A stretch of 64,000 nucleotides of DNA from Lysobacteraceae bacterium (lineage in GTDB: Bacteria > Bdellovibrionota > UBA1018 > JAGTJX01). The notes under the pieces were generated by a model, which was given only the letters and a program-made list of their open reading frames with translations, searched no databases and had not been told where the DNA came from. The stretch's first letter is position 1; each line of letters opens with the position of its first letter. The stretch lies in assembly GCA_023657465.1 (NCBI GenBank), contig JAGTJX010000001.1:834358-898357 (forward strand). The letters run 5' to 3'. Shown here piece after piece: positions 811 to 61,018 of this stretch. Made by a program: the position numbers and the translations under genes.

Positions 811-1175
811 TGACTTATGAATTTGTAAATCAAAAAAATTCAAAGAGTCTCGCATCTCGCGCAAAGAAGGCGTCGAGTTATGCCCAGAGGTTGCTCGGTC
901 TCATGGGTAAGAAGGATTTGCCACAGGGTGAAGGTCTCTGGTTTCCGAAGTGCAATAGCATCCATATGTGGTTCATGAAAATTCCAATCGACGCTGTGTT
1001 TATTAAAAAAGAAGGCAACGATTACAGAGTGATTAAGTGTTTTTCAAGATTGAAGCCATGGAGAGTGTTCCCTGCGATGAGTTTGAATGCAACTGACGTG
1101 ATCGAACTTCCAGTAGGAGTCATCGACTCAGCAGAAGTGAGAGAGGGGGATCTACTATGTATAAACTCAAAATAG
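810..1175 (+). CDS. DUF192 family protein
   Basis: This 121-residue protein belongs to DUF192 (YwlB/TTHA-type), a small beta-rich family of unknown biochemical role, often exported but here without an obvious signal peptide. The family core is visible: 'SIHMWFMKIPIDAVFI' near residues 50-65, followed by 'PWRVFPAMSL' and 'VIELPVGVIDSAEVREGD'. The ATG at 810 is chosen because it overlaps the tadC stop (TGATG) and is preceded by GGAGG at 793-797; an upstream in-frame ATG at 783 lies inside tadC. The 3' end overlaps the next FHA gene by 19 bases, so it is translationally coupled within the pilus operon. Its link to pilus assembly is positional only. Confidence 0.8.
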   Translation: MTYEFVNQKNSKSLASRAKKASSYAQRLLGLMGKKDLPQGEGLWFPKCNSIHMWFMKIPIDAVFIKKEGNDYRVIKCFSRLKPWRVFPAMSLNATDVIELPVGVIDSAEVREGDLLCINSK

Positions 1176-2740
1176 TAGCTGGCCCTAATCGCGGTGCAAC
1201 GTTTGAAGTGCAGGAAGGTGAGACTTCTATTGGGAGAAATCCTGATAACGTGATCATTCTTCCATCAAATAGAATTTCTAAGAAACATTGCAGCCTCTAC
1301 TTACTCAACGGTGAACCTACAGTTCAAGATCATGGAAGTTCAAATGGAACATTCGTGAATGGTTCACTCTCTAAGAATAAAAAAATTAAATCAGGTGATC
1401 GTATCAGTGTGGGTGAGTTCATTCTCGAGTTCACTGATACATCGAGTAAGAGAAAATCTCTGAGTGTCCAAGGAATGGATAATGTTCTCCAGTTTCCTAC
1501 GTCTCAATCTCAGCAATCAGTAGCGGTGGTCAATCAAGATGGCCCACCTAAGAATTATCAAGAGAAAGCCAAGTGGTATGTTGAAAAAGGCTTGCTTCCA
1601 TTCTTCTATGGTCTCTTGCTCAAGTATGACTGGAAAATCATTACTGCAGGGTTAATGGCAATCCTACTTACCGTGGGTCTACTCGTCTCAATTCAACCAC
1701 TCATCGACTCTCATCAAGATACAGTTGTAAGAGAATCTGAGAAAAGAGCCGCTGCTCTTGCCAGACAAATAGTTGAAAAGAATGCCATTGCAATTGCGAA
1801 CCAAGCTGAAACTAAAACAGATATTGGAATTATTGAACGCGAAGATGGAGTGGATTCTGCTGTACTGATTGATCTTAAAGCCAGAATTATTTCTCCACCT
1901 GAGAAAATGAATCAGTACTTCACAAAGGGTAACTCTGCTGTTGTAGCAATTGAAGCTTTGAGAATGTATGAGCGTGGTAAACGCGAAGCTGGATATGTCA
2001 AACGTACGGATGATCTTGTTGTGGCAATTGAGCCCCTTAAAGTGTTTGATCCGACTCTATCTAAAAACACAATTCGAGCTGTGGCAGTAGTGGGTATCGA
2101 TATCACTCAGGCAGCTATGGCAGTAGGAGAGATTGGTCTCTACTATTCAGAATCACTTGTTGTGGTGGGAGTGGTCGCCTTACTCGTATTTTATATATTG
2201 CTTCGTATCACTCTAAAACCATTTGAAGTACTGAACGAAGACCTAGATAAAATCTTAAGGGGTGAGATGTCTCAAATCACTCACGAGTTCAAATTCGACG
2301 AGCTTAACTCACTCTGGGAAGTATTGGGATCTGTGATCCAAAGAATCCCCAAGGCAGGTGGAGACAGCGGAATGGCTGGCGGATCGCCGGGTGCTTCAGT
2401 AGATGAATTCATTCAAACAATGAGAAGTTTAGGTGAACTAGGATTTGTAGGTGTCGTGATCTGCGATGGCGAACACAAGTTACTCTATGCAAACAAGAAT
2501 TTCGAGGATGTCACAGGCATTAGAATGGATGCTGCTGCAGGTAAGTCATTACCTGAGTTAGCAAGAGACCAAGCCTTCACTATGTTTGTAAAAGAAATAT
2601 TTGCCAAAGCAGCTTCGGGCGCTAAGCCAGTGGAAGATCTTGAGTTTTCAGGCGTGGCATATAAGGCAATGGCAAGTCACCAAATGGCTAGCGGAGCGCA
2701 TGCCTATGCTCTCGTTATATCGAAAAAGGAAACTAGCTGA
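1157..2740 (+). CDS. Membrane protein with FHA, periplasmic sensor-like and PAS-like regions
   Basis: The 527-residue protein has an N-terminal FHA domain (about 1-95), a phosphothreonine-binding fold, with 'TSIGRNPDN', 'RISKKHCS' and 'GSSNGTFVNG' supplying the conserved Gly, Arg, Ser, His and Asn positions. A first membrane helix lies near 165-185 and a second near 327-350. The 140 residues between them are probably periplasmic and sensor-like. A PAS-like region follows around 420-500 ('LLYANKNFEDVTGIRMD'). The ATG at 1157 follows a strong GAGAGGGGGA ribosome site and overlaps the DUF192 gene. The layout suggests a membrane signalling or scaffold protein of the pilus machine; no kinase or other output domain is visible. 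Confidence 0.8.
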   Translation: MYKLKIVAGPNRGATFEVQEGETSIGRNPDNVIILPSNRISKKHCSLYLLNGEPTVQDHGSSNGTFVNGSLSKNKKIKSGDRISVGEFILEFTDTSSKRKSLSVQGMDNVLQFPTSQSQQSVAVVNQDGPPKNYQEKAKWYVEKGLLPFFYGLLLKYDWKIITAGLMAILLTVGLLVSIQPLIDSHQDTVVRESEKRAAALARQIVEKNAIAIANQAETKTDIGIIEREDGVDSAVLIDLKARIISPPEKMNQYFTKGNSAVVAIEALRMYERGKREAGYVKRTDDLVVAIEPLKVFDPTLSKNTIRAVAVVGIDITQAAMAVGEIGLYYSESLVVVGVVALLVFYILLRITLKPFEVLNEDLDKILRGEMSQITHEFKFDELNSLWEVLGSVIQRIPKAGGDSGMAGGSPGASVDEFIQTMRSLGELGFVGVVICDGEHKLLYANKNFEDVTGIRMDAAAGKSLPELARDQAFTMFVKEIFAKAASGAKPVEDLEFSGVAYKAMASHQMASGAHAYALVISKKETS

Positions 2741-3735
2741 TGAAGTCTGCAAAGAAGTTTAAGACACATCAGGTTGCAAGACAGAAAGGCGAGAAGGCTA
2801 GACTGAAGGTCGTCTCTGGTCCTGATCAGGGAACAATCTATGTTCTCTACGGTGTTAAGGCGATCATTGGTAGAGGTGAAGAGGCTGATGTATTCATCAG
2901 TGATCTAAGAGCCTCGCGAGCTCATGCAGAGATTCAATGGAATGGTAAGGGTTGGATTGCTACAGATAGTAATAGTGCTAACGGGATATTGATCAATGGA
3001 AATAAACTGAAGACATCTCCTATTCAAATTGGTGATACAATTTCATTGGGAGATACAGTACTGGAGTTTGTCTCTCAAGATGCTTCAACTCTGCTTCTCA
3101 TGTCACCGGCTCGTAACATGGGGCAATTACAGCTTGAGAGAAAAACTTACAAAGAACAAATCAACCGAATTCGATCCATGGGTACTCTGGATGGTTTAGG
3201 TGAGCATAAGCAAACAGCAATATTGATATTGGCTGGCCTTGGTTTTGGATTGTTTATGTTTCTTTCTCCAAACACAGACTTGATTACAGCTGAAGCAATT
3301 AAGAAGAAAGCTCCTCCAACTGATCAGAAGAAGTTGGCTGCGTTTCTGCCTGAGATTGAAAATATTGATATGAAGAAAGCTTCTGAGAAGTTTTTCAGAG
3401 AAGGCACTCGTGAATACCTCATGCAGAACTATGGAAGAGCCCAGGGGTTATTCCAAACTGCTCTTCAAGTGAATCCTGGTCACTCGCAAGCTAGACTCTA
3501 TCTTGAGCTCTGTAAAGCAGCAGTCGATGAAGAGGCTTCCAAGACTCTGATGCTTGCACGTAGAGCACTTGGACTTGGGAAAATAAGACAATCTGAAAAC
3601 TACTTTGAAAATATTCTTAAACTTTATCAGCGTGATCAATCCGCTCCACAATATGTTGAAGCTTGGGAACAGCTCCAGGCCATTAGAAAGCCTGCAGCTA
3701 AAAAACCTGAAGAACCAGGAGGGACGGCTCTATGA
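2740..3735 (+). CDS. FHA-TM-TPR protein of the Flp pilus cluster
   Basis: The 331-residue protein has an FHA domain at about residues 20-110 ('AIIGRGEEADVFISD', 'RASRAHAEI', 'NSANGILING'), one membrane helix near 158-178, and a C-terminal TPR-like helical part about 210-320 ('NYGRAQGLFQTALQVNPG'). It is probably a bitopic protein with a cytoplasmic phosphopeptide reader and a periplasmic protein-interaction domain. The start overlaps the preceding stop (TGATG at 2738-2742) and its own stop overlaps the next ATG (ATGA), so three FHA genes are translated in series. No FHA ligand is identifiable here. Confidence 0.8.
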   Translation: MKSAKKFKTHQVARQKGEKARLKVVSGPDQGTIYVLYGVKAIIGRGEEADVFISDLRASRAHAEIQWNGKGWIATDSNSANGILINGNKLKTSPIQIGDTISLGDTVLEFVSQDASTLLLMSPARNMGQLQLERKTYKEQINRIRSMGTLDGLGEHKQTAILILAGLGFGLFMFLSPNTDLITAEAIKKKAPPTDQKKLAAFLPEIENIDMKKASEKFFREGTREYLMQNYGRAQGLFQTALQVNPGHSQARLYLELCKAAVDEEASKTLMLARRALGLGKIRQSENYFENILKLYQRDQSAPQYVEAWEQLQAIRKPAAKKPEEPGGTAL

Positions 3736-6167
3736 GCGCTCTTCCAATTCTCACTATATTAAAAAACGGAGAAAAACTTTCTGAACATGAAATCGAAAGA
3801 GATTCTTCTATTGGTCGTGACGAGGGCTGTGTCATCCGATTGGAAGATAGAGCTATTTCGAGAAACCATGCTCAATTAAGAGTAGTCACTGAAGGTATTC
3901 AGATTGAAAAGAAAAGTCAGTTTGGAAGTCTCAGTATCAATGGCGAAGAAAAAACTTCAGCTGTCATTAAAACAGGGGATTTGATTGCCTTAGGTCCTTA
4001 CTTGATCAAAGTCCAAATGCCTGAAGCTAAGAAAGTTGAAGAACCAAAAGTTGAAATAGCACCAGTAGCTCAACCTGTAACGCCATCTACAGATAGTTCA
4101 CTGGGTGAAGAGTTAACTAGTAGTAATCCTGAGGCTGAATCTCCACCTGTAGAAGCTGAACCAGGAGATTCTCCTCCACAGGAGGAGTTACCTCAAGATG
4201 CCACTCCACCGTTAGAAACTGCAGAAGTTCCAGCAGCAGAATCAGCTCCACAAGAAGATCTCATTGCACCACAAGAGTTAGCACCCTCTGGAGAGAACCC
4301 ATTCGAAGATAATTCTGATGGAAAAACGCGAGTACTCAGTCAGTCTAGTACTGTCTTAGGACGATTGGTTTTTGAAGATGGATTCGGAAATCAAAAAGAA
4401 TTCATCATTGATCGAGATGAAATCAGTATTGGCAGAGCAAGAGATTGTGATCTTCCTATTGATGACAAACGTTTATCAAGAAAACACATTCTCATTCAAA
4501 GAATGGGAATTAAATTCATTCTTAAAGATCTCCAATCTGCAAATGGGACTTTTATTAATGATATCCAAATTCAAGAACAAGAATTAGAGAGTGGAAATAC
4601 GATTAGAATAGGTGACACTCAGCTGCTCTTTGAGGCCATTAGCTCTGATTATCAAAGTACACCAGCTTCAGAAGAATCATTTGAATCTGAAAATTTTGCT
4701 GGTGAAGTAGAGCAACAACCTCAAGGATCATTGCCTTATTTGGGTGCAACACCAGAGCATACACAAAGCATCGTAGGTATCTCAAGTGGTAAGTCAGCAG
4801 GCAAAGGCACTTTGATCGAACAGTTCAAAGCTCTACCACCTAAGAAGAGGATGATTTATGGCGCAGTAGTGCTGATGTTTATCTTTTTCATCATGGATCA
4901 AGAACCAGAAGAGGCTAAGAAAAGAGTTCCAGCTTCAAAGCAGGGTGTAGGTCAAAAGGTCGCTCCAACCTTCGAGAAACTTAGCAAAAAAGATAAAACA
5001 TTCGTGAGTACACAGTATCAACTCGCGTTCGATCTTTATACTTCTAAGCAATATGATAAAGCGATTTATGAAGTGACTAAGATTTTTGATCTGATTCCAG
5101 ATTATAAAGATGCAAGAGATATTCAAAGATACGCTGAAGAAGGAAAGCGTCGTCTTGCTGCAATGGAAGCTGAAAACAAAAAACGTGAAGAAGAGAATAA
5201 AATCAGACAAAAAGTTGCTGAGTTGGAAGAGGAGATCAGTAAACTCATCATCAGTAAGAAGTACGAGAGAGCTGTTGAGCTATTCCCGCAAGTGATAGAG
5301 TTAGATCCAGAAAATGTGAACGTCGAAAAATGGCAGTCACAAGTCGATGAGTATTTGGCTAAGAAGAAACAGGAAGAAATAAAAAAACAACTCATTGCAA
5401 GACTCACAGAACAAGCTAAGGGTATTCGTGAAGACGCTCAAGCATTTTTCGCCAAGAAGTCTTATCGTATTGCCATCACTAAGATGAATGAAGCTTTAAA
5501 GCTCTCTCCTATTGAAGAAAAACTAAAAACTCAACTCACCACTGAAACTGAAGAAATGATTGCAGCTCTTGCTGATGAAATGAACCCACTCATGGCTGAT
5601 GCTAAAGAGAAGGAAGAGGCTAAGGAGTTTACAGCAGCATATAAACTCTATGATCAAGCGATTGCACTCGATCCAGAAGATCAAAGCCCAAAAGAAGGGA
5701 TTGAGCGAATTAGGGATACTCTTCACATCAAGGCAAAAGGGCTATATACGGAAGGTCTACTCAGTGAGAGCTATTCTGACTTCGAGACGGCTAAGAATAA
5801 ATACCAAGACGCAAAAGAAACTGCTCCTGCAGATGATGAGTACTTCACTAAAGCTACAAACAAGCTGAAGAAGTTTGAAATACTGAATTTAGCGTTTCCT
5901 ACAGCTCCTAGACAACCAGCTAGTGCAGGTCCTCCTGAGTTTAGTTCAGCAGATTTGGCACCTGGTGCAACCCCAGGTGTTCCAACTGAAAAACAACTAG
6001 GAGTAGCACCAGCAGGTGGTAGTCCTGGTTACAAGGAGCAGCAGCCTGCAGATCCAGGAGCCGATGCCCCACCTCAAATGCCAGATTTCTCTCAATTACT
6101 ACAAGGTATCGGAGGAGGCTCTGGAGCGGGCGCACCCCCTCCTGCAGATACTGGAGGAGCTCCATGA
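3732..6167 (+). CDS. Large double-FHA, single-TM, TPR/coiled-coil protein
   Basis: The 811-residue protein carries two FHA domains. The first (about 18-90) has 'SSIGRDEGCVIRL' and 'AISRNHAQL'; the second (about 210-300) has 'ISIGRARDCDLPID', 'RLSRKHILI' and 'SANGTFINDIQ'. An acidic Pro/Glu-rich linker separates them. A single membrane helix lies near 375-388. The rest is a long Lys/Glu-rich helical region with TPR-like repeats (about 415-720, e.g. 'AYKLYDQAIALDPEDQ') and a Pro/Gly/Ala-rich tail. It starts on an ATGA overlap. The topology resembles FHA assembly proteins of other secretion and pilus systems. It probably scaffolds the pilus base, which is inference. Confidence 0.8.
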   Translation: MSALPILTILKNGEKLSEHEIERDSSIGRDEGCVIRLEDRAISRNHAQLRVVTEGIQIEKKSQFGSLSINGEEKTSAVIKTGDLIALGPYLIKVQMPEAKKVEEPKVEIAPVAQPVTPSTDSSLGEELTSSNPEAESPPVEAEPGDSPPQEELPQDATPPLETAEVPAAESAPQEDLIAPQELAPSGENPFEDNSDGKTRVLSQSSTVLGRLVFEDGFGNQKEFIIDRDEISIGRARDCDLPIDDKRLSRKHILIQRMGIKFILKDLQSANGTFINDIQIQEQELESGNTIRIGDTQLLFEAISSDYQSTPASEESFESENFAGEVEQQPQGSLPYLGATPEHTQSIVGISSGKSAGKGTLIEQFKALPPKKRMIYGAVVLMFIFFIMDQEPEEAKKRVPASKQGVGQKVAPTFEKLSKKDKTFVSTQYQLAFDLYTSKQYDKAIYEVTKIFDLIPDYKDARDIQRYAEEGKRRLAAMEAENKKREEENKIRQKVAELEEEISKLIISKKYERAVELFPQVIELDPENVNVEKWQSQVDEYLAKKKQEEIKKQLIARLTEQAKGIREDAQAFFAKKSYRIAITKMNEALKLSPIEEKLKTQLTTETEEMIAALADEMNPLMADAKEKEEAKEFTAAYKLYDQAIALDPEDQSPKEGIERIRDTLHIKAKGLYTEGLLSESYSDFETAKNKYQDAKETAPADDEYFTKATNKLKKFEILNLAFPTAPRQPASAGPPEFSSADLAPGATPGVPTEKQLGVAPAGGSPGYKEQQPADPGADAPPQMPDFSQLLQGIGGGSGAGAPPPADTGGAP

Positions 6168-11156: not shown

Positions 11157-13334
11157 ATGGCAGGACATATAGTCGCAGTTGTAGGTGGTAAAGGAGGAGT
11201 GGGCAAAAGCGTTTTTGCTGCCAACTTCGCTATTGCCTACTTGCAGAACTTCAAGCTGCGACCCCTCATCATTGACTTAGACTTCAATAGTTTGGGTGAC
11301 CAAAATATAATTTTGGGTCAAAACCCTGCAAAAACAATTGTAGACCTGAGTAAGGTTCAAATTCCTCAGCTAGATGCTAAGTCATTGGCTCCTTTCGTCG
11401 TCAATGCTCAGCAAGGGTATAGCTTCATTGGTTCACCTAGAGAAACAGCATTTGCTAAGGATATTGATGTTGAAGGTCTGGGTCGTGCATTGAAGCAACT
11501 CACGAACTTGTTTCCCATCATCGTCATAGATTGTGGAAGTCAAATGGATCCACACGTATTGAAGGCACTTGAGCTTTCCAGTGCCATCTTCTGTGTAACG
11601 ACTCCGGATATTATTGTTGTAAATCAGACGAGACGTGTCCTTGCAAAAATTCAAGAGCTTCTCTTCCCTCCTGAAATGGTTCAAATCATTGTGAATAAGT
11701 ACAATCCAAATAACATCATTAATCCTCAGATCATTCAGAAGAATCTGAACAGACAAATCTTCGGAGCGATTCCTGATGAACCTCAAACTTCGGATGGTGC
11801 TCTTGCTAAGGGCATGCCAATCGTTCTCTCTGCACCTAATGCCCCTGTCACTCGTGCGTACAGTGATTTGGTCAGAAAAATCCAGCAAGTGAATCTGTTT
11901 GATACTCTTGCCAAGCTCAACAAACCTCAGAACGTCGCACAGAAGGCACTCGCTGCTAAAGGTGCAGAAGGTGCTGCAGCGGCAGCAGGTGGAGAAACGG
12001 GTGCGCCTGGTGTCACCGTAAGATCTAAGAACGGTGAGATTGATGTATGGACATCGATGAAGCTTCGTATTCATAAGTTCCTAGTGGAAAAAATGGATAT
12101 TAAGAAAATGACTGGGGATCAGAATGATCCGAAAACTAAACTGGTTCTCAGAGAGAAGACATCTAAAACTGTATTAGATGTTTTAGCAACCTTGCCACCG
12201 GAAGATATTAATCAAGTCATGGGTACTCGTGAACTCAAGGCTCAGATGCTCAAAGAAGTTTTGGACGAAGCGCTTGGTCTTGGACCTTTAGAAGATTTAC
12301 TTGCGGATGATGATGTAACTGAAATCATGGTCAATGCTCGTGACCAAATCTATGTTGAGAAAAAAGGTAAACCAGGCCTATCCAAAGTTACATTCTCTAG
12401 CGAGCAACAGATGATGAACGTGATTGAACGTATTGTGACTCCACTAGGTCGTCGTTGCGATGAAAAGACTCCTTACGTAGATGCCCGTCTTGCTGATGGT
12501 AGCAGGGTGCATATTATTATTCCTCCTCTAGCTCTGCGTGGTCCTACAATCACTATTCGTAAATTCCCTAAAAAACGCATCACTGAAAAGGAACTCGTCG
12601 CATTCGGAGCAATGACTACTGAGATCGCTGATTTCTTGAAAGCTTGTGTTGAAGGTAAACTCAACATTGTCGTGAGCGGTGGTACTGGCTCTGGTAAAAC
12701 CACTCTACTGAATGTTCTTTCTAACTTCATTCCTGCTTCTGAGAGAATCATTACTGTAGAAGATGCTGCAGAATTGCAATTAGGTCAGGAGCACGTCGTG
12801 AGACTTGAGTCTCGCCCTAAGAATATCGAAGGAGAAGGCGAAGTCAGTATTCGTGATCTTATCAAATGTTGTCTCCGTATGCGTCCTGATAGAATCATCG
12901 TCGGAGAGTGTCGTTCTGGAGAGGCAATGGACATGTTGCAAGCGATGAATACCGGTCACTCGGGATCACTCACTACTCTGCATGCGAATAACCCAAGAGA
13001 AGCGCTCGGTCGTCTTGAAACTCTTGTCATGATGGCAGGACTGGGATTACCACTGAAGGCAATTAAAGAAACCATCGCTTCAGCAGTGAACTTGATCGTT
13101 CAGCAATCTCGTCTCACCGATGGATCACGTCGTGTAACTTATATTTCTGAAGTTGTGGGTATGCAAGGTGAAGTGATTACACTTCAAGATATTTTCGTAT
13201 TCAAACAAGAAGGACTAGATAAGAACAGAAAAATTATTGGAAGATTCGTTCCAACAGGTTTTATTCCAAAATTCGTAGAGGAAATGGAAGCCAAAGGAAT
13301 GAAGATTTCAAGAGGATTGTTTTCAGCTAAATAA
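11157..13334 (+). CDS. CpaE/TadZ-CpaF/TadA fusion: localisation ATPase joined to pilus motor ATPase
   Basis: The 725-residue protein joins two Tad proteins that are normally separate. Residues 1-255 are a ParA/MinD-type ATPase with deviant Walker A 'GGKGGVGKS' (10-18) and 'IVIDCGS', as in CpaE/TadZ, which places the machine at the pole. An Ala/Gly-rich linker follows (about 255-295). Residues 300-725 are a CpaF/TadA secretion ATPase: '[20 protein letters not shown]', Walker A 'GGTGSGKTT' (508-516), '[11 protein letters not shown]' and '[15 protein letters not shown]'. There is no frameshift or internal restart at the joint. It lies 2 bases after cpaC and 17 before tadB. The typical CpaE receiver-like N-terminus is missing. 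Confidence 0.88.
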
Positions 13335-14215: not shown

Positions 14216-15868
14216 ATGAGAAAGTTAGGATTGGCTTTAGTTTTTGCTTTACTCACGAGTGCACAACTCCAAGCGAACGTCAGCCTGAAGAATGGTAACT
14301 TCTTCATTGGATACACAGACGTCATCTTCGTCGGTGGTTATGAACCTAAGGTAGAGCGTGTTTATAATTCTAAAACTTCATTCAAAGGAATCTTCGGTCA
14401 TGGCTGGGGCACAGAGATTGAAGGCCAGCTCATCATCTCAGCTGATGGTAGCTTGCTCATCAATGAATACGGCGGTGGAGCAGAGAATAGATTCATTCCT
14501 GTAGGTCAGAAGCCAGAGGATATTGCAAAAGTCATCACGACACTCGTAACACTTGCACAAAGTGGTGGCTTCAATAGTCCAAGTTACAAGGACAAACTGA
14601 AGTCAGACATCGAATTCAGAAACGCGGAATGGGAACGTTGGGTAAGAGCTGGCAAGCTGAAGCGTGTCGAAATCAAAGTAGGAACTCAGTTCAAATCCAA
14701 TAAGTTTAGCTATCAGTATATTACTAAAACTGCACAGAACTACATTCGTGTATTCGATAACGGTAAGCAAGAGGTTTACAATCTCGATGGAAGGTTAGTA
14801 AAAGTCCAAGAGAAGTCTGGTAACTTCATTTCTCTTACCTATAAGAACGGACTTCTTGAGAAGCTCATCGATAATCAAAACCGTAAAATGTTTTTCAGCT
14901 TCAATGCTAAGAAGCTTGTCGAAAAAATCGAATTAGAAGGTTCAGGCTCTTCAGCTTATAAGTATAATCCTCAAGATGAGCTCATCAGCTCTAAGGACAT
15001 GCAAGGGAATGCCTATACTTATGCCTACTCGCCCGATGCGAGGCATAATTTAACTGAGATTGGCTACTCTGATGGGACGAAGATGCTGATTTCTTACTAC
15101 GGTAAGGATCTCTACGAAAACGTGAAGTCCATCAAAGACAAAGACGGATCTTCTACGGATTATCAATATGTTTTCAAAAACGGAAAGTTTCAGTTCATTG
15201 TCACTGTCACCTTGAAAGACAAAAAAGGAAAAGCCTACGCGAATCAGTCTTATGAGTATTGGATTGCGATTAATTCAACAGGCGAAGAGTACACACAGAA
15301 GCTGATCCAAATCATAGATGGCGATAAAACAGAAACCACTTACCATGCTGAGTTCGGTCTTCCTCTTTCGATCAAACGCCAAGATGAGGAGAGTAAGTTT
15401 GAGTACGATCAGAAAGGTAGAATCACATACAAGGAAACAGGATCTGATATCACTCGCTTAGCCTATGATCAGACAGTAGGTAAAATTTCAAAAGTCAGCA
15501 GAAAATCAAAGGGCACTGGCAAAGAGCTAGGTTGGTCGACTTTTGCTTACGATGGAAAAACAGGGAATCTCACTTCAGCTCTCAACTCACAGAAACAATC
15601 TGTTCGTCTCGGCTACGATCGCTTGGGACGTATTGCGACTATGCTCGATCAGGATAATCGTAGGATCGATTTTACCTACAACGCTCAATCGAAACCTATT
15701 GAGATTAAGGATGCTAAGAAGGGTTCTATAAAAATCAAATACGGCGCTAAGGGAGAGATCCAGGGCGTCGATAGTCCACTTGGCCCAAAGGTAGCTATGG
15801 AAGTTACGACTGCGTTTAATAACCTGCTTGAGATTATCCGTCCTGCAGGCGTATCCCTGTCACTTTAG
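14216..15868 (+). CDS. Exported Rhs-like YD-repeat protein
   Basis: The 550-residue protein has a signal peptide (about 1-20, cleavage near 'LQA-NVS'), then an Rhs-type entry motif 'LKNGNFFIGYTDVIF' and 'YNSKTSFKGIFGHGWG'. YD-like repeats run to the C-terminus ('LTYKNGLLEKLIDNQNRKMF', 'GYDRLGRIATMLDQDNRRID'). It is far shorter than toxin-bearing Rhs proteins and ends without an RHSxDP-type core boundary or a variable toxin tail. It begins 3 bases after tadB and ends at the operon terminator, so it is expressed with the pilus. A pilus-associated adhesin or surface shell is a reasonable inference. Confidence 0.75.
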   Translation: MRKLGLALVFALLTSAQLQANVSLKNGNFFIGYTDVIFVGGYEPKVERVYNSKTSFKGIFGHGWGTEIEGQLIISADGSLLINEYGGGAENRFIPVGQKPEDIAKVITTLVTLAQSGGFNSPSYKDKLKSDIEFRNAEWERWVRAGKLKRVEIKVGTQFKSNKFSYQYITKTAQNYIRVFDNGKQEVYNLDGRLVKVQEKSGNFISLTYKNGLLEKLIDNQNRKMFFSFNAKKLVEKIELEGSGSSAYKYNPQDELISSKDMQGNAYTYAYSPDARHNLTEIGYSDGTKMLISYYGKDLYENVKSIKDKDGSSTDYQYVFKNGKFQFIVTVTLKDKKGKAYANQSYEYWIAINSTGEEYTQKLIQIIDGDKTETTYHAEFGLPLSIKRQDEESKFEYDQKGRITYKETGSDITRLAYDQTVGKISKVSRKSKGTGKELGWSTFAYDGKTGNLTSALNSQKQSVRLGYDRLGRIATMLDQDNRRIDFTYNAQSKPIEIKDAKKGSIKIKYGAKGEIQGVDSPLGPKVAMEVTTAFNNLLEIIRPAGVSLSL

Positions 15869-17274: not shown

Positions 17275-18378
17275 ATGTTAAGGGTTCTGACCGGAATCAT
17301 CTCTCTTCTGACGATGTCTAGTCATTCCCACGCAGGTGTTATTTCAAAAAATCATCTTTGGCAAAAAAACAGATTAAAAGTCTGTTTTGCACAGAAGCTA
17401 AAAGATCTCAAAGATGTAAAACTGCCCGTAAATCTTGAGTCACTATCTAAAACATTCACACCATTCCCAGATAACATTGCTGACCTAGCAATTGAAGCAG
17501 TGAAGGAATCTTTCTCAATTCCACTGACCGCTGTTGAGTTCTACGGATTTCAAGACTGTGGTCGACATTCAGATTTTGATGTTGCACTTGTATATTTGGA
17601 CGAACCCGAAGCTTTACTTACCGCAGGTAGTATCGGAGATCCTCACTCTAAAACATCTATCCTTATTCGCTCAGGGTTCATAGATTTCTTCAGAAAAGAC
17701 TGGCAATTGTTTCAGGGTTTCCTTATTCAGAATGAATTATCAAACAAGAGTGCATTTCAGAATGGAGATGCTTTTTCAAATGATGTTTTAAAAAGAGCGA
17801 TCGTTCATGAGTTTGGTCATGTCTTAGGTCTTTTTCATGAACATTCTAGACAAGATGTTCCTCGTTTTGCGAGGCTTCCTCTCTTTGATGATTTCAGCAA
17901 AAACATTGAAAGAATGCATTTGGATCTAGAGAATAGCTCCTATAGTTCTCATGAAGTTTCACATTTCAATATTAATGCTACGATGGGATATTATTGGTTT
18001 ACTTTCATGAGGCTCAAACTGAGACTCGACGCAATCTGCTCTTCATCGATTTCATTTGATGACAATAGATTTCATTCGTTCTTAAATGACTTTGCAGGAA
18101 AACTTTTATTCCTTGATCCTAAACAATATAAAAATATATTCAGTCAACGTTCTTTTGATTCAAGAGCGTTATGTACAACCATTGAGCCCATCCTGAATCT
18201 ATTCACTCATCACGGAGATTCCCTTTACTTAGAAGGTTCTGATATCGAAGCGCTGAAGTTTGGGTATCTTGGTGATACCACTGAGTCAGCTCCATCTAGA
18301 CCTTCGCAAAACTTAAATGAATTGAATGAGATATTTTTTGAATCTGTTTCTAGTTATATTCAGTTATTTTCAATTTAA
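17275..18378 (+). CDS. Exported astacin-like zinc metalloprotease
   Basis: The 367-residue protein has a signal peptide (about 1-20, 'SSHSHA-GVI') and a metzincin zinc site 'HEFGHVLGLFHEHSRQD' (from His178), matching the astacin HExxHxxGFxHExxRxD pattern, with His178, His182 and His188 as ligands and Glu179 as base. A likely Met-turn 'ATMGYY' follows about 45 residues later. Several Cys in the C-terminal half could form disulfides. It starts immediately after the preceding exported protein's stop. In a predatory or lytic lifestyle it could degrade prey or matrix proteins, which is inference. No clear terminator follows. Confidence 0.75.
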   Translation: MLRVLTGIISLLTMSSHSHAGVISKNHLWQKNRLKVCFAQKLKDLKDVKLPVNLESLSKTFTPFPDNIADLAIEAVKESFSIPLTAVEFYGFQDCGRHSDFDVALVYLDEPEALLTAGSIGDPHSKTSILIRSGFIDFFRKDWQLFQGFLIQNELSNKSAFQNGDAFSNDVLKRAIVHEFGHVLGLFHEHSRQDVPRFARLPLFDDFSKNIERMHLDLENSSYSSHEVSHFNINATMGYYWFTFMRLKLRLDAICSSSISFDDNRFHSFLNDFAGKLLFLDPKQYKNIFSQRSFDSRALCTTIEPILNLFTHHGDSLYLEGSDIEALKFGYLGDTTESAPSRPSQNLNELNEIFFESVSSYIQLFSI

Positions 18379-28714: not shown

Positions 28715-29377
28715 CTATTGATTCTGCAGTTGAATGAGAGTGTACTGTCTGACACCCGTTCCATCGCGTCTATATGAGGCGTATTTCCAATTTTTTGACT
28801 CATTGTTAAGAGTGCATTTCGTACACTCACGGATGATTTCTACAGCGGAAAATCCCAGTTTTTCAAGCTCGAGTGCATGAATTTTTTGCAAATCGAGATG
28901 ACGGTGAGTAGGCGTAATTATTTTTTTTGGTAGTTCACTAAATGTGGATTGAAAATCGTAAAATAAATCTTCGCCTACCTCATAACAGCATGGGCCAATG
29001 GCAGGACCGATCCATGCTTTGAGTTCCTGCGGCTGTATTTTGTATTCGCGAGTCAGTGTGGACTGGATCCAACTCGATAGAATCCTAGCTTTCGTCCCTT
29101 TCCAGCCTGCGTGAAAAGCGCCAATGAATTGACGTGTCTCTGATCCAATGAGAATCGGAACGCAATCTGCGGTCACTACTCCGATAGGAATTCCCAGTTG
29201 AGTAGTGACGAGTCCGTCCGTGTCGCCGCAGTTTTGATTCTGAGAATCAACCCTGACTACATTCACACCGTGAGTTTGTTTCCATGTTGGTTTGAGCGCA
29301 TCCCAAATTGTCTTGAAGGGAGCAGGTATGGGATCTGTGAGAGTACCAAATCCAGTAATGAGCTTAGCCTGAGACAT
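28715..29377 (-). CDS. pgeF: Peptidoglycan editing factor PgeF (YfiH/LACC1 family)
   Basis: The 220-residue protein has the Cu-oxidase_4/YfiH signature blocks 'GDTDGLVTTQLGIPIGVV' with 'TADCVPILIG', 'GAFHAGWKGTKARI' and 'WIGPAIGPCCYEVGED', carrying the conserved Cys and His metal/active residues. In E. coli PgeF keeps non-alanine residues out of peptidoglycan precursors; relatives have purine nucleoside activities. It overlaps rluD by 14 bases, a conserved rluD-pgeF arrangement in many bacteria, which supports the call. Confidence 0.88.
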   Translation of the reverse strand: MSQAKLITGFGTLTDPIPAPFKTIWDALKPTWKQTHGVNVVRVDSQNQNCGDTDGLVTTQLGIPIGVVTADCVPILIGSETRQFIGAFHAGWKGTKARILSSWIQSTLTREYKIQPQELKAWIGPAIGPCCYEVGEDLFYDFQSTFSELPKKIITPTHRHLDLQKIHALELEKLGFSAVEIIRECTKCTLNNESKNWKYASYRRDGTGVRQYTLIQLQNQ

Positions 29378-30371
29378 AGTGTGTTTTTAATTCTAATAGC
29401 AAATCTCTAAAATGTTGATGGGGTTCTGCATCAATTTTAATCGAAACTCCCGTAATGGGGTGTGCGAATCCAATAGTACGAGCATGAAGGGCTTGTCCTG
29501 TGAGGTTTCGGACTTTCTCTAAGATCCTGGGTGGAACCGCTCTCGGTGTGCCATAAACTTGATCGCCCATGATGGGAAGCTTGAGGTGATTCAGATGCAC
29601 ACGCACTTGATGTGTTCGTCCTGTCTCGAGACGACATTCCATCCATGAACCAAAAGGTGACTTACCAGGCTCAGCATATCTTTGTTTTGATTGAGCATAG
29701 GTGGTAGCAGTTTTTCCACCAGTGGGTAGAACTGCAATTTTTTTTCTGTCAGCGGGATGTCGTCCTAGCTGAGTTTGGATTTTCATCATATCCGTTTGAA
29801 TAGGTGCTCCGTAGCAAATAGCCCAGTAGACACGTTCGATATCATGCTTGGCAAAAACTTCTGCAAGCTTCTGGTGTGCTTGATCGGTTTTCGTAATGAC
29901 GAGACTTCCTGAAGTGTACTTGTCGAGTCGATGAATGATTCCTGGTCTGTAGACTCCGCCAATCTGACTGAGCTTGCCGAAATGGTGAAGGAGTCCATGT
30001 ACAAGTGTAGGTCCCGTATCCGTATCGCTGGGGTGAACACTGATTCCAGGAGGCTTATTGATGATCGCTAGATGCTCATCCTCATAGAGAATCTCTAAGT
30101 TCATCGGAATGGGAGAGAGACTCATCTCACGACTTGGCGGAATAAAGATTTCAATTGTATCTCCTGCCGAAACTTTTACAGACGATCTAGCTACCTCACC
30201 ATTTACTTTCACGAGGCCTTCATCGATCCAGTTCTGGAAGCGACTTCGCGTGATGGGAATTCCTGGGTTCTGTTCAGTGAAGAGTTTAGGAACTATGTGA
30301 TCAAGTCTAGATTCATGCTCGTCACGATCGAGAGTGTGTTTCCAGGAGGAGCTCAAAATTTTTCCGGACAA
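29364..30371 (-). CDS. rluD: RluD-type 23S rRNA pseudouridine synthase
   Basis: The 335-residue protein has an N-terminal S4 RNA-binding domain (about 18-80, 'RLDHIVPKL', 'VKVNGEVARSSVKVSAGD') and a PseudoU_synth_2 catalytic domain with 'GIIHRLDKYTSGSLVITKTD', where Asp in HRLD is the catalytic residue, plus 'RLETGRTHQVRVHLNHL'. It probably modifies helix 69 of 23S rRNA, as RluD does. It overlaps the J-like/RodZ-like gene at its 5' side by 19 bases and pgeF at its 3' side. Confidence 0.92.
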   Translation of the reverse strand: MSGKILSSSWKHTLDRDEHESRLDHIVPKLFTEQNPGIPITRSRFQNWIDEGLVKVNGEVARSSVKVSAGDTIEIFIPPSREMSLSPIPMNLEILYEDEHLAIINKPPGISVHPSDTDTGPTLVHGLLHHFGKLSQIGGVYRPGIIHRLDKYTSGSLVITKTDQAHQKLAEVFAKHDIERVYWAICYGAPIQTDMMKIQTQLGRHPADRKKIAVLPTGGKTATTYAQSKQRYAEPGKSPFGSWMECRLETGRTHQVRVHLNHLKLPIMGDQVYGTPRAVPPRILEKVRNLTGQALHARTIGFAHPITGVSIKIDAEPHQHFRDLLLELKTHYVSG

Positions 30372-31168
30372 GTCGTTTTATAGCGATCTAAGTAGGCGCT
30401 AATGACTCTCTCGTGAGGAAGTTTGAGCTTGCGACAGATCTGCATGAGGAAGCCTCTCAAGAACACAGGCGCTGGTAACTTCTTAAATAGATCGCTCTCA
30501 ATTGCCACAATGTAGGGTTTACTCACTCTGCTAAATGCCGCTAATTCATCAATGGAGATGCCTAGAGTTTCTCTTGTTCTACGAATGAAATCACCCGACC
30601 ATTCAGTCTCTCTTTCGAGTTCAAGTTGAAAGTTGGCTATGTCGATGACAGAGTGAATATTCTTGTCGTAATGGGGAGGAGAGACCTTCACTTGTGTAGG
30701 TACATCCAAGAAGTTCTGAGGAGTTGGCGCTTCCGATGATGAAGTCCCCAATGTTGCAGTCCCCAATGTTGCAGTCATAGACGGCAATTCGAAATGAGTA
30801 GGTGGAGCGATGAGAAGATCGTCTGTAGTCTCTGAAATATCCATTGGAGGAACACGGTCAATCGAAACCACTTTAGATTCTGAAGATGGGTGAGTCGAGG
30901 GAGAAGAAAGATCTAAAGTAGCTGGAATGAGACCATTCTCAAGATCGTACTGACGTTTTTTCTCAGGGTTTGAAAGGATCTCGAGACCTTCTTCTAGGCG
31001 CTTGAGTAGAAACTCAACATCTTCTTGGCTAACAATAGAATAAGTGGCCACGCTGTCTTTGCTGTAAGCGTCTTTCATTCTCAAATAAGCTCTTTTGATT
31101 TCTGTCGTAGAGGCAGAGGGGCTTATTTCTAAAAGATCGTAATAAGTTTGTTGTTCAGTGAGAAACAT
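30353..31168 (-). CDS. J-like domain (no HPD) fused to RodZ-like HTH
   Basis: The 271-residue protein starts with a DnaJ-like helical domain (about 5-78: 'TYYDLLEISPSASTTEIKRA', 'LSNPEKKRQYDLENG') in which the Hsp70-activating HPD motif is absent; the loop reads 'KDAYSKDSVATYS'. A Ser/Thr/Pro-rich linker (about 80-175) carries a duplicated ATLGT from a 15-bp tandem repeat at 30743-30772. The C-terminus (about 190-265) is a HTH_25/RodZ-type domain ('TRETLGISIDELAAFSRVSK'). No membrane helix is present, unlike RodZ. It follows the FlhG/MinD-like ATPase by 12 bases. It is probably a cytosolic adaptor or regulator. Confidence 0.7.
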   Translation of the reverse strand: MFLTEQQTYYDLLEISPSASTTEIKRAYLRMKDAYSKDSVATYSIVSQEDVEFLLKRLEEGLEILSNPEKKRQYDLENGLIPATLDLSSPSTHPSSESKVVSIDRVPPMDISETTDDLLIAPPTHFELPSMTATLGTATLGTSSSEAPTPQNFLDVPTQVKVSPPHYDKNIHSVIDIANFQLELERETEWSGDFIRRTRETLGISIDELAAFSRVSKPYIVAIESDLFKKLPAPVFLRGFLMQICRKLKLPHERVISAYLDRYKTTCPEKF

Positions 31169-31180
31169 TTGCTCATCATA

Positions 31181-32203
31181 TTAAGCCAAAAAAGACGGGA
31201 CTTGTCTACGGTTGTTGAGCAAGTAGTGTGTCATACGCTCTATACTCGCAACTAACCTGGAATGAGGGAATTCTGTCACTAGAGGTTTCTTCTTACGGAT
31301 AGCTTGCCAGACCGTATTGTCGTGATCTAAGTAGCCGACGTAATCCAAATCGATTCCGAAATATTTTTTACACACTGACTTAATCGAGAATCCAATATCA
31401 ATATCAGACTGAGTTCTTGACTGGTTGACTATGAGTTTGGGTGTGAATCTTTCGATTTCTTCTTTGAGTCGGGTCGCTGCTTCTGGATTCTTCTTACTCA
31501 CTTCTCTGAATAAGTCTGAAGGAGTACGGATCATACCATTCGGATTAGACTCCATGGCCATTTGAACAAGTGGAGTGATGTCTTTCAAGTGTGGGGACAT
31601 GAGGAGTCTGCGGTAGTATGAGCTCTTAATGAAACGGTATGCGTTTTCAATCGAAGTAGGTTCGGGTAGCAAGCAGACGATCCCCACATCAGCACATACA
31701 AAAAAATCTAGAGTATGGAATGTGGTACCTGCTCCTAAATCCAATACGACATAATCCGCATCGATCTGCCGAATTTGATTTACGAGATTTTGTTTCTTGG
31801 AGTCTTCAAGGTTTGCTACGTGAACAGCATCTTGGGCACCACTGATGATTTCTAAATTCGGGATTCCTGTTTTCACTAAACATTCATTGAGATGAGTTTG
31901 TCTTCCATTGAAGAAGTCACTGAGACTGAGCTTCGGCAAATCTATTCCAAGAAGTGTGTGTAAGTTTGCAGCACCAAGATCGAGGTCGAGAGCTGCTACT
32001 TTGTTTCCAGTTTTTGCTAGAGAAACTGCGAGACTTGAGGAGAGCATACTTTTACCAACGCCACCCTTACCGCCGCCGACTGCCCAGACTTGTTTGACTC
32101 TTGAGAATGAAGGTTTTGGAGTGCCATAGAACGGGTTGAAATCAGAGTGTTCGTCTGTTTGAATGGAAGGTTCTTGTCTGTCTGAAAAAGAATAGTGATC
32201 CAT
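31181..32203 (-). CDS. FlhG/MinD-type P-loop ATPase
   Basis: The 340-residue ParA-superfamily protein has deviant Walker A 'KGGVGKS' (46-52), 'VAALDLDLGAANLHTLLGI' and 'YVVLDLGAGTT'. It lacks the chromosome-partition context, and the ~40-residue N-terminal extension and the 'GAANLHTLLG' block resemble FlhG/YlxH, which sets flagellar number or position; MinD is the alternative. No flagellar genes are in the window. The upstream region to 32262 is shared with a divergent kinase-like gene; GAGGAC sits just before the ATG. Confidence 0.8.
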   Translation of the reverse strand: MDHYSFSDRQEPSIQTDEHSDFNPFYGTPKPSFSRVKQVWAVGGGKGGVGKSMLSSSLAVSLAKTGNKVAALDLDLGAANLHTLLGIDLPKLSLSDFFNGRQTHLNECLVKTGIPNLEIISGAQDAVHVANLEDSKKQNLVNQIRQIDADYVVLDLGAGTTFHTLDFFVCADVGIVCLLPEPTSIENAYRFIKSSYYRRLLMSPHLKDITPLVQMAMESNPNGMIRTPSDLFREVSKKNPEAATRLKEEIERFTPKLIVNQSRTQSDIDIGFSIKSVCKKYFGIDLDYVGYLDHDNTVWQAIRKKKPLVTEFPHSRLVASIERMTHYLLNNRRQVPSFLA

Positions 32204-59374: not shown

Positions 59375-61018
59375 TTATTTTACCTCCTTCGTTTTACCGG
59401 TGAAAGTAAACTTCCAGACTTGCGAAGAACTATCAGTAGCAAGAATTTCTTCAGGTGAGAGTTTTTGAACTCCAACCAGTGTCCGACCGATAATCTGACC
59501 TAACTTCTCTCCCATTTCTAAGCTCTTGACTTGGAATGCTACTTTTACTTCTTGAGTGACGTTGGGGATGAATGAACTCTGAGTGGATGAGCCTACTTGA
59601 AAATGAACAAGATCAGCTGCCATCGATCTGGGGAGCTGACCAGAAATATCTTTGAGATAATTGATGGGAGTCTGTGGATTGGGTGCAGAGAGTTTTGCAA
59701 GTTCTCTATTTAAGTTGATTTGTTTTTGAAGTTTGTTTTTTAATTCAACTGAGTTTGAAAGATAGGCTTTGATTTGGGTTCTGGTAACTGATCCATAGTA
59801 GTCTTTCAAGCTGCGTTCAAGTTTCATATCTAGGTCTTTGATTTGAGATTCGTAAGAGAAGATCTGTACGTTGAAACTAATGAATGCGGCTACCATTACT
59901 GAGAGCGCACTCCATGCAATAGTCTGATAAGCGCCCCAGTTAATCAGAGACTTGGCGCCAGCTTTTGCAAATTCCTTTTTACGGAATTGAATCGGCTTGA
60001 TTCGATCGAGGGCTACTAGACTGAGTGCTGCTCCAGCAGCAAGTGAGAGAGCTGCATCGGATTGTTCGTTGTAACTCACTCCTGAATTAGAGAGTCTGCT
60101 CAATGATTGGAGTGGAGTCGTTGGAACTTGAAACTCATTCTCGATGAAGGAGTTAAGCCCTGGAAGTTGTGATGGACCTCCAGAGAGATAAATTTGATGA
60201 GTAGATTGGTGGGTCACTCCTCTGATTGAGAAGAGTGTTTTCTTAATTTCCTGAATGAGTGATTCACATGACTTTACAATTTCGATTGAGAGCTCTCTTT
60301 GCTCAGGAGTTGCGGCTGCTTCTTGTTCTGCGTTTAACCAATACCCACTCGCTGTTTTAACTTGTTCGGCTTCTTCACGAGTGATCTGGTAGATCGCAGC
60401 TAGGTTCTTCGTGATCGTCTCTCCGCCCCATGCAATTTCTTTGCAGAAAACTGGCTGACCATTCCAATGACAGTAGAAGACAGTGCGTGTTTTTCCTGTA
60501 TGAATAAGAAGAACTGGTTTTTGTTGAGTTGCAGGATCGAGACTACGATTGAGGAGTGCACAGAACAACCAAGACTCACTTGTTACAGTGTCGGGATCAA
60601 ATTCTGTTTTATTGAGTCCATCTAAATAATGGGTCAGGTGCTCCTTGAGTGTAGCGGAAACATGGATCTGAGTGGAGTTGTTGTTGTGACTGAGAGTACA
60701 GAAATCATAAACTGCATTTTCTAAGTCAAAAGGAAGATCATCTTCGAGTTCAAAAGCAATACCTGCGATGATTGCTTTTCGATCTTTTGTAGGAAGAGAG
60801 AGATTCCTGGTGGTGACTAATCCAGAAGGCATAGCGGTGATGATTCTATCGGGCTTCTTCTGGATCTTTGTAGCCAATTGACCTAAGAGGTACTCATTTG
60901 AGACATCCTGTTGTCTCAAAATTTCATGATATTCATGCACTTCGTAACGATTGAACGCGCTATCGATTTCAACTGCTTTGAGTGAATGCTGTCCTAAGTC
61001 GATCGATAAGATTCTCAT
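59375..61018 (-). CDS. gspL: Type II secretion protein GspL (PilM-PilN-like fusion)
   Basis: The 547-residue protein has an actin-like/PilM cytoplasmic domain (about 1-330; 'ILSIDLGQHSLKAVEID', 'ILLIHTGKTRTVFYCHW', 'YLSGGPSQLPGLNSFIE'), one membrane helix (about 362-382) and a periplasmic PilN-like domain. This is the GspL layout; GspL links the GspE ATPase to GspM. It lies 10 bases after gspK, with GGAGACA as ribosome site. Confidence 0.85.
   Translation of the reverse strand: MRILSIDLGQHSLKAVEIDSAFNRYEVHEYHEILRQQDVSNEYLLGQLATKIQKKPDRIITAMPSGLVTTRNLSLPTKDRKAIIAGIAFELEDDLPFDLENAVYDFCTLSHNNNSTQIHVSATLKEHLTHYLDGLNKTEFDPDTVTSESWLFCALLNRSLDPATQQKPVLLIHTGKTRTVFYCHWNGQPVFCKEIAWGGETITKNLAAIYQITREEAEQVKTASGYWLNAEQEAAATPEQRELSIEIVKSCESLIQEIKKTLFSIRGVTHQSTHQIYLSGGPSQLPGLNSFIENEFQVPTTPLQSLSRLSNSGVSYNEQSDAALSLAAGAALSLVALDRIKPIQFRKKEFAKAGAKSLINWGAYQTIAWSALSVMVAAFISFNVQIFSYESQIKDLDMKLERSLKDYYGSVTRTQIKAYLSNSVELKNKLQKQINLNRELAKLSAPNPQTPINYLKDISGQLPRSMAADLVHFQVGSSTQSSFIPNVTQEVKVAFQVKSLEMGEKLGQIIGRTLVGVQKLSPEEILATDSSSQVWKFTFTGKTKEVK

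Follow-up and report, generated by a model that had tools for sequence, protein, structure and literature searches.

The J-HTH protein, as it is named here, is a 271-residue product of an ATG-initiated open reading frame at positions 30353-31168 (minus strand) of the window, i.e., the whole 64,000-nucleotide stretch that was analyzed. It joins a J-like domain without the HPD motif to a RodZ-type HTH_25 domain. Its gene is paired with that of an FlhG/MinD-type ATPase that is separate from flagellar FlhG, and the loop that stands in place of HPD is eroded in most homologues whose genomes do not have this ATPase. From these comparisons we lean toward the view that the J-HTH protein is a cytosolic adaptor of the ATPase, in which the J-like domain would be the dedicated partner of the enzyme and the HTH would bind a second target.

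Architecture of the J-HTH protein

The protein and its parts are located as follows:

30353..31168, minus strand: J-HTH protein, with an HPD-less J-like domain, a linker, and a RodZ-type HTH_25 domain (open reading frame, Pfam, AlphaFold2, 97 homologues)
30938..31147, minus strand: J-like domain, residues 8-77, helices I-IV (Pfam DnaJ; structural Z up to 10.9)
31019..31063, minus strand: extended loop in place of HPD, residues 36-50, SKDSVATYSIVSQED (alignment; helix 40-45 in the model)
30653..30937, minus strand: disordered linker rich in S, T, and P, residues 78-172 (pLDDT 51-69; composition)
30371..30595, minus strand: RodZ-type HTH_25 domain, residues 192-266 (Pfam 1.2e-15; RodZ 2wus, Z 13.0)

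An earlier note, made from the letters alone, had described an N-terminal DnaJ-like fold with a replaced HPD, a Ser/Thr/Pro linker, a C-terminal HTH_25 domain, and no membrane helix, and this description is borne out in each part. Pfam DnaJ matches residues 8-75 (E 1.9e-8; 34.7 bits, cut-off 27.8), and HTH_25 matches residues 195-254 (E 1.2e-15). Serine, threonine, and proline make up 40% of residues 78-172, compared with 26% of the entire protein. The highest 19-residue Kyte-Doolittle mean is 1.01, and it does not exceed 1.52 across 59 homologues; no membrane-type stretch is found.

The AlphaFold2 model is confident in both domains, with pLDDT values per ten-residue block of 80-97 in the J region (75 in its first block) and 90-98 in the HTH; the linker scores 51-69 (blocks 81-180), and the overall pTM is 0.42. 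Foldseek with the two-domain model gives E values no better than 5e-3. A second structural comparison matches residues ~5-84 to J domains, with Z up to 10.9, and residues 190-269 to RodZ of the MreB-RodZ complex (2wus; Z 13.0, rmsd 1.8 over 78 residues), so that structure prediction, which the earlier note had proposed as a check, returns a J fold and a RodZ fold. A profile of the 59 homologues matches J domains (E 7.8e-15) and RodZ (2wus, E 6.9e-10) in the PDB, which rules out a chance match. The J-domain match, which the earlier note had left open to refutation, is real by both Pfam and this profile.

The J-HTH protein is not a lone oddity, as 97 homologues can be aligned. An initial search covered 290 genomes of the phylum; 285 gave a match of any kind, ordinary DnaJ and RodZ included, and full-length relatives occur in many families. 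The 97 are the distinct homologues from all collected loci that cover both profile ends; exact copies, contig fragments, truncated proteins, a J-like protein from Zixibacteria, and the HTH-only proteins of family f19 (both described below) were dropped. Clustering at 95% identity leaves 96. Public genomes were also scanned for close relatives, which yielded only two ordinary DnaJ proteins with HPD.

When the J-HTH protein is aligned with three DnaJ proteins, one of them from its own genome, SKD stands at the HPD position and is followed by a five-residue insertion; all three controls have HPD. The model places a short extra helix (residues 40-45) within this loop. The J fold is thus true, and the HPD motif of J-domain proteins (Hsp40) is absent. 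Retention of HPD in homologues would have spoken against the original description; none of the 97 keeps it at the loop position. One (L125) has HPQ, and in another (L019) the letters HPD occur further along, outside the loop. The loop has its own conserved core, D-S-x-A-x-Y-S, in which A41 and Y43 are each kept in 85 of the 86 homologues with an adjacent ATPase gene.

J domains are textbook partners of Hsp70, which they activate using HPD and touch via the corresponding loop region and helix III. It is conceivable, given the true J fold, that the protein is a cryptic co-chaperone whose J-like domain serves DnaK via another surface, or acts as a holdase, with the HTH delivering it. This is highly improbable in view of the absence of HPD throughout the 97 homologues, the residues at position L29 (mostly L, Q, or E), which corresponds to K26 of E. 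coli DnaJ, and the conservation of the loop as something else.

The HTH most resembles RodZ (Z 13.0), followed by YmfM (11.8); DNA-binding HTHs, such as SinR and HigA, match more weakly (Z 8.3-9.3). RodZ-type HTH_25 domains serve protein binding, and the RodZ-like fold favors a protein as the target of this domain. The J-HTH protein is not itself RodZ. Although it shares the HTH_25 fold of the MreB-bound protein, it has neither a transmembrane helix nor a periplasmic domain, its HTH lies at the C-terminus, and a separate membrane-anchored RodZ is encoded in the same genome (maximum hydropathy 2.69 versus 1.01). An MreB family search matched 280 of 280 genomes and hence offers no contrast for the RodZ-like HTH.

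Within the otherwise variable linker, residues 100-126 (window 30791-30871, minus strand) carry the motif (V/I)SIDRxPPM and, after it, a PPTxF-like stretch. SIDRxPPM is present in 16 of 24 linkers inspected, all from the order of the window; a stricter pattern is found in 13 of 97. At 30745-30774, the sequence that encodes the linker contains two tandem copies of the 15-base unit tccccaatgttgcag, which yield TATLGTATLG.

The neighboring ATPase and its separation from flagellar FlhG

Three genes adjoin or follow J-HTH on the same strand:

31181..32203, minus strand: FlhG/MinD-type ATPase, 340 residues, deviant Walker A KGGVGKS, directly upstream of J-HTH, 12 bases apart
29364..30371, minus strand: RluD-type pseudouridine synthase, the next gene downstream of J-HTH (Pfam; conserved synteny)
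28715..29377, minus strand: PgeF/YfiH-type protein, Pfam Cu-oxidase_4 (Pfam; conserved synteny only)

The pairing of the ATPase and J-HTH genes, whose conservation the earlier note had suggested checking, extends to 86 of the 97 homologues, in which the ATPase gene lies directly upstream (in one, L121, it was assigned by eye where the ORF caller had missed it); two homologues lie at contig ends, and nine are without the ATPase. Synteny was counted in 40 larger loci, picked because of a J-HTH hit. The ATPase gene immediately precedes J-HTH on the same strand in 39, and an RluD-type gene follows J-HTH in all 40, for which no functional link is claimed. A PgeF-type gene is downstream on the same strand in 25 and on the other strand in 4; it was not found at the threshold used in 11. 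TsaB is kept in the neighborhood in several families, and the genome G073 carries the ATPase, J-HTH, and RluD genes. No paper on this gene pair was found in the open-access literature searched, and neither DnaJ nor MinD occurs as a term in the main text of PMC12546842.

The ATPase is flanked by J-HTH and a CTP_transf-like gene, with no adjacent parB; the parA-parB pair of this genome sits elsewhere. Residues K46, K51, D73, D75, and D155 are kept in 55-56 of 56 window-type ATPases. Since these lysines and aspartates are those with which active MinD/ParA proteins carry out ATP-dependent dimerization and hydrolysis, the enzyme is likely to alternate between a dimer with bound ATP and an ADP state.

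Among solved structures, those of FleN/FlhG are the closest in both sequence and fold, several of them complexed with FleQ. Together with the weaker matches of the HTH to SinR and HigA, this could indicate a transcription-regulating pair of the FleN-FleQ type, in which the HTH would bind DNA and be switched on or off by the ATPase via the J-like domain. The ranking of RodZ and YmfM above the DNA-binding HTHs and the protein-binding role of HTH_25 make such a pair an unlikely, though not negligible, alternative to an adaptor with a protein target.

The ATPase is not the flagellar FlhG. Its locus is non-flagellar, and a tree separates 32 window-type ATPases from 15 flagellar FlhG proteins by a branch with 99/98 support, although its root is uncertain and it includes some long rows. 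A separate FlhG is encoded between FlhF and FliA in 15 of 20 flagellar loci examined; it is missing in four, all of the order of the window, and one locus is cut by a contig end. Among the 13 of these 15 genomes that were also examined for the window-type ATPase, both proteins occur in 11 and FlhG alone in 2. FlhA is absent in 34 of 280 genomes, yet the window-type ATPase persists in 19 of these (E 8.2e-51 or better). In 16 of the 19, a J-like gene adjoins it, including five genomes rated 98-99% complete (G014, G067, G093, G096, and G188); the other three are two GYF_2 fusions and one at a contig end. The remaining 15 FlhA-less genomes show only weaker ParA-like hits (3.7e-18 or worse). Because the ATPase persists without FlhA, the pair is proposed to position or switch something non-flagellar.

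In the genome of the window, contig C1 holds flhA clustered with flhF-like and fliA-like genes, with neither flhG nor the window ATPase among them; the FlhF match reaches 151 bits, less than the curated threshold of 174. The other hits in this genome are an Mrp-type protein, a ParA beside ParB, and one more ParA-like protein, so that a second FlhG/MinD-like protein was not found. The flhA-flhF-fliA arrangement without flhG (locus L160, G000:C1:326000-341000) recurs in that flhG is also missing in three other genomes of the same order and present in two.

Two further family features were compared. The N-terminal DQAxxLR motif, a feature of FlhG, is found in 0 of 56 window-type ATPases, yet also in only 2 of the 15 flagellar FlhG proteins of the phylum. 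MinD features a C-terminal amphipathic membrane helix; C-terminal 18-residue windows of the ATPase have moments of 0.36-0.50, and the maximum of 0.61 lies elsewhere in the protein.

Loop decay in ATPase-less genomes and partial forms of the pair

The nine J-HTH homologues in genomes without the window ATPase belong to families f22 (three), f23 (three, in two genera), and f13 (three, genus g42). The best ATPase hits of these genomes are partial (at most 108 bits), and eight of the nine are identified as flagellar FlhG by their position beside FlhA. The gene just before J-HTH is TsaB-like in all five of the larger loci without the ATPase; in relatives, the ATPase gene sits between the two.

The loop is less well kept in this set, with A41 in three and Y43 in two of the nine. 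The loop score minus the HTH score has a median of -0.01 in homologues with the ATPase versus values of -0.14 to -2.01 in the nine (p 5.9e-6). Helices III-IV minus HTH are also lower (p 1.9e-4), and helices I-II minus HTH are not (p 0.27); all of these p-values ignore kinship, with about three independent losses underlying the nine. General relaxation accounts for part of the decay, since lower scores are also seen for helices I-II (p 0.023) and for the HTH (p 0.032) when each is taken alone. The correspondence has exceptions on both sides. Some ATPase-bearing homologues have weak loops, with the lowest score, 0.28, in L125 (mean 2.12); conversely, L162, which is among the nine, has an intact loop (score 2.08), which either fits a recent loss of the ATPase or counts as a case against the correlation.

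The genome of one of the two DnaJ proteins from the public scan led to a second form of the pair. A Zixibacteria MAG encodes a full-length ATPase of this family (8e-88) and, 24 bases on, a 125-residue J-like protein that is HPD-less, has the same kind of loop (YQKDSIAHYSLISEEER), and carries no HTH. The gene context of this pair differs from that in the phylum of the window. It is the only full-length match among the 80 genomes sampled from the Zixibacteria and could be due to transfer or a binning error. Because it has no HTH, the pair suggests that the J-like domain and the ATPase form the constant core, with HTH_25 as an addition.

Co-retention in one operon need not imply contact. The two could be old housekeeping genes that stay beside rluD although their products do not touch; the neighborhood also retains RluD, PgeF in many cases, and TsaB in several families, with no obvious link among them. 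Simple hitchhiking would leave unexplained why the J loop and helices III-IV decay far more than the HTH of the same protein when the ATPase is lost, and why a J-like gene and the ATPase gene are also paired in another context; we regard it as improbable, slightly more so than a FleN-FleQ-type pair. The same two observations lend support to the claim of the earlier note that the J-HTH protein acts with the upstream ATPase; the enzyme described there as FlhG/MinD-like is not flagellar FlhG.

Partial forms also occur within the phylum. In genus g69 of family f11, the ATPase has no adjacent J-HTH gene and is fused to an N-terminal GYF_2 domain. This form of the window-type ATPase, with no J-like gene adjacent, is encoded at L122 (1393-2643, minus strand) and L123 (1134-2420, plus strand); its neighbor in L122 is a gene for polysaccharide export (Pfam Poly_export). 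Two genomes of family f19 (93% and 89% complete) encode an HTH-only relative of 103-124 residues near pilM, and the window-type ATPase was not found in these two genomes. Profile scores suggest that the f19 proteins are remnants of J-HTH. Their genes, L205 4983-5294 and L206 6341-6715 (both minus strand), are divergent to pilM (Pfam PilM_2), which is the direct neighbor in L206 and one gene away in L205, with pilN next.

Proposed role, known systems, and other features of the window

In the favored reading, i.e., that of a cytosolic adaptor, the loop with its D-S-x-A-x-Y-S core and helices III-IV would form the docking face for the upstream ATPase, as their co-retention and co-decay with the enzyme suggest. 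By analogy with J domains on Hsp70, the J-like domain may read or drive the ATPase cycle, and the J-HTH protein could be a stimulator of ATP hydrolysis, a sensor of the nucleotide state, or cargo. The HTH, on its flexible linker, may bind a second target, more likely a protein scaffold, for example MreB or a polar or pilus structure, than DNA. A41, Y43, and the loop provide a concrete set of residues for testing.

A more specific proposal, which we advance tentatively and would not yet bet on, is that the J domain has switched ATPase: HPD and Hsp70 were lost, and the rebuilt loop binds and stimulates, or senses the nucleotide state of, an ATPase of the MinD/ParA family. Such a protein would resemble the ATPase-activating partners MinE and ParB but would use a J fold and interchangeable output domains, for which the candidates are HTH_25 in this phylum, none in the Zixibacteria MAG, and GYF_2 on the ATPase itself in genus g69. 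If true, the conserved association of a J domain with a MinD/FlhG-type ATPase would mean that the fold is transferable to another ATPase superfamily. The pair would also point to an uncharacterized positioning or switching system in these bacteria.

Several known systems share parts of this arrangement. Pam16-type J-like proteins of mitochondria have a degenerate HPD and use the J fold as a regulator. Both they and the J-HTH protein are without a functional HPD; however, the partner of Pam16 is the J protein Pam18 rather than a MinD-type ATPase. FlhG/FleN, a member of the MinD/ParA superfamily with the partners FleQ, FlhF, and HubP, has the same ATPase fold and catalytic residues as the window ATPase and likewise acts through partner proteins. 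In contrast, the window ATPase is encoded outside the flagellar operon, lies across the well-supported branch, and has a J-like protein as its putative partner.

A precedent for a J-domain protein in a process run by an FlhG-type ATPase is SflA of Vibrio (PMC7226244). SflA is a membrane DnaJ-domain protein with a periplasmic TPR/SLR-like domain, and its loss alters flagellation when FlhF and FlhG are absent; it is described there as Vibrio-specific and encoded outside the known polar flagellar gene clusters (PMC7226244). The J-HTH protein differs in being free of a membrane helix.

ParA-like ATPases that act outside chromosome segregation are known from this kind of bacterium. Bdellovibrio bacteriovorus has ParA1-3 (bd1326, bd2331, and bd3906), of which ParA2 affects gliding reversals (Milner et al. 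2020, PMC7186360). The respective gene neighbors are given as bd1327 plus a bolA-like gene; bd2329, which has no strong homologue of known function; and parB (PMC7186360). As these neighbors do not fit RluD, the window-type ATPase is unlikely to be any of the three, as far as that description goes. Two strong dnaJ homologues are named for Bdellovibrio in PMC2797640.

Elsewhere in the window, a gene at 11157-13334 (plus strand) encodes a 725-residue protein in which a ParA/CbiA domain at the N-terminus is combined with a T2SSE ATPase domain at the C-terminus. It lies between secretin and T2SSF genes, with an RcpC/CpaB gene upstream, and the region looks like a Tad-type pilus cluster with a CpaE-CpaF fusion. 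Ahead of this Tad-like cluster, at 1157-6167 (plus strand), are three consecutive genes for FHA-domain proteins, two of them with TPR repeats. An RHS-repeat/DUF6531 protein of 550 residues is encoded at 14216-15868 (plus strand), with an astacin-type peptidase nearby at 17275-18378 (plus strand). Finally, a 547-residue protein encoded at 59375-61018 (minus strand), amid genes on the same strand, matches PilM_2 and, more weakly, T2SSL.
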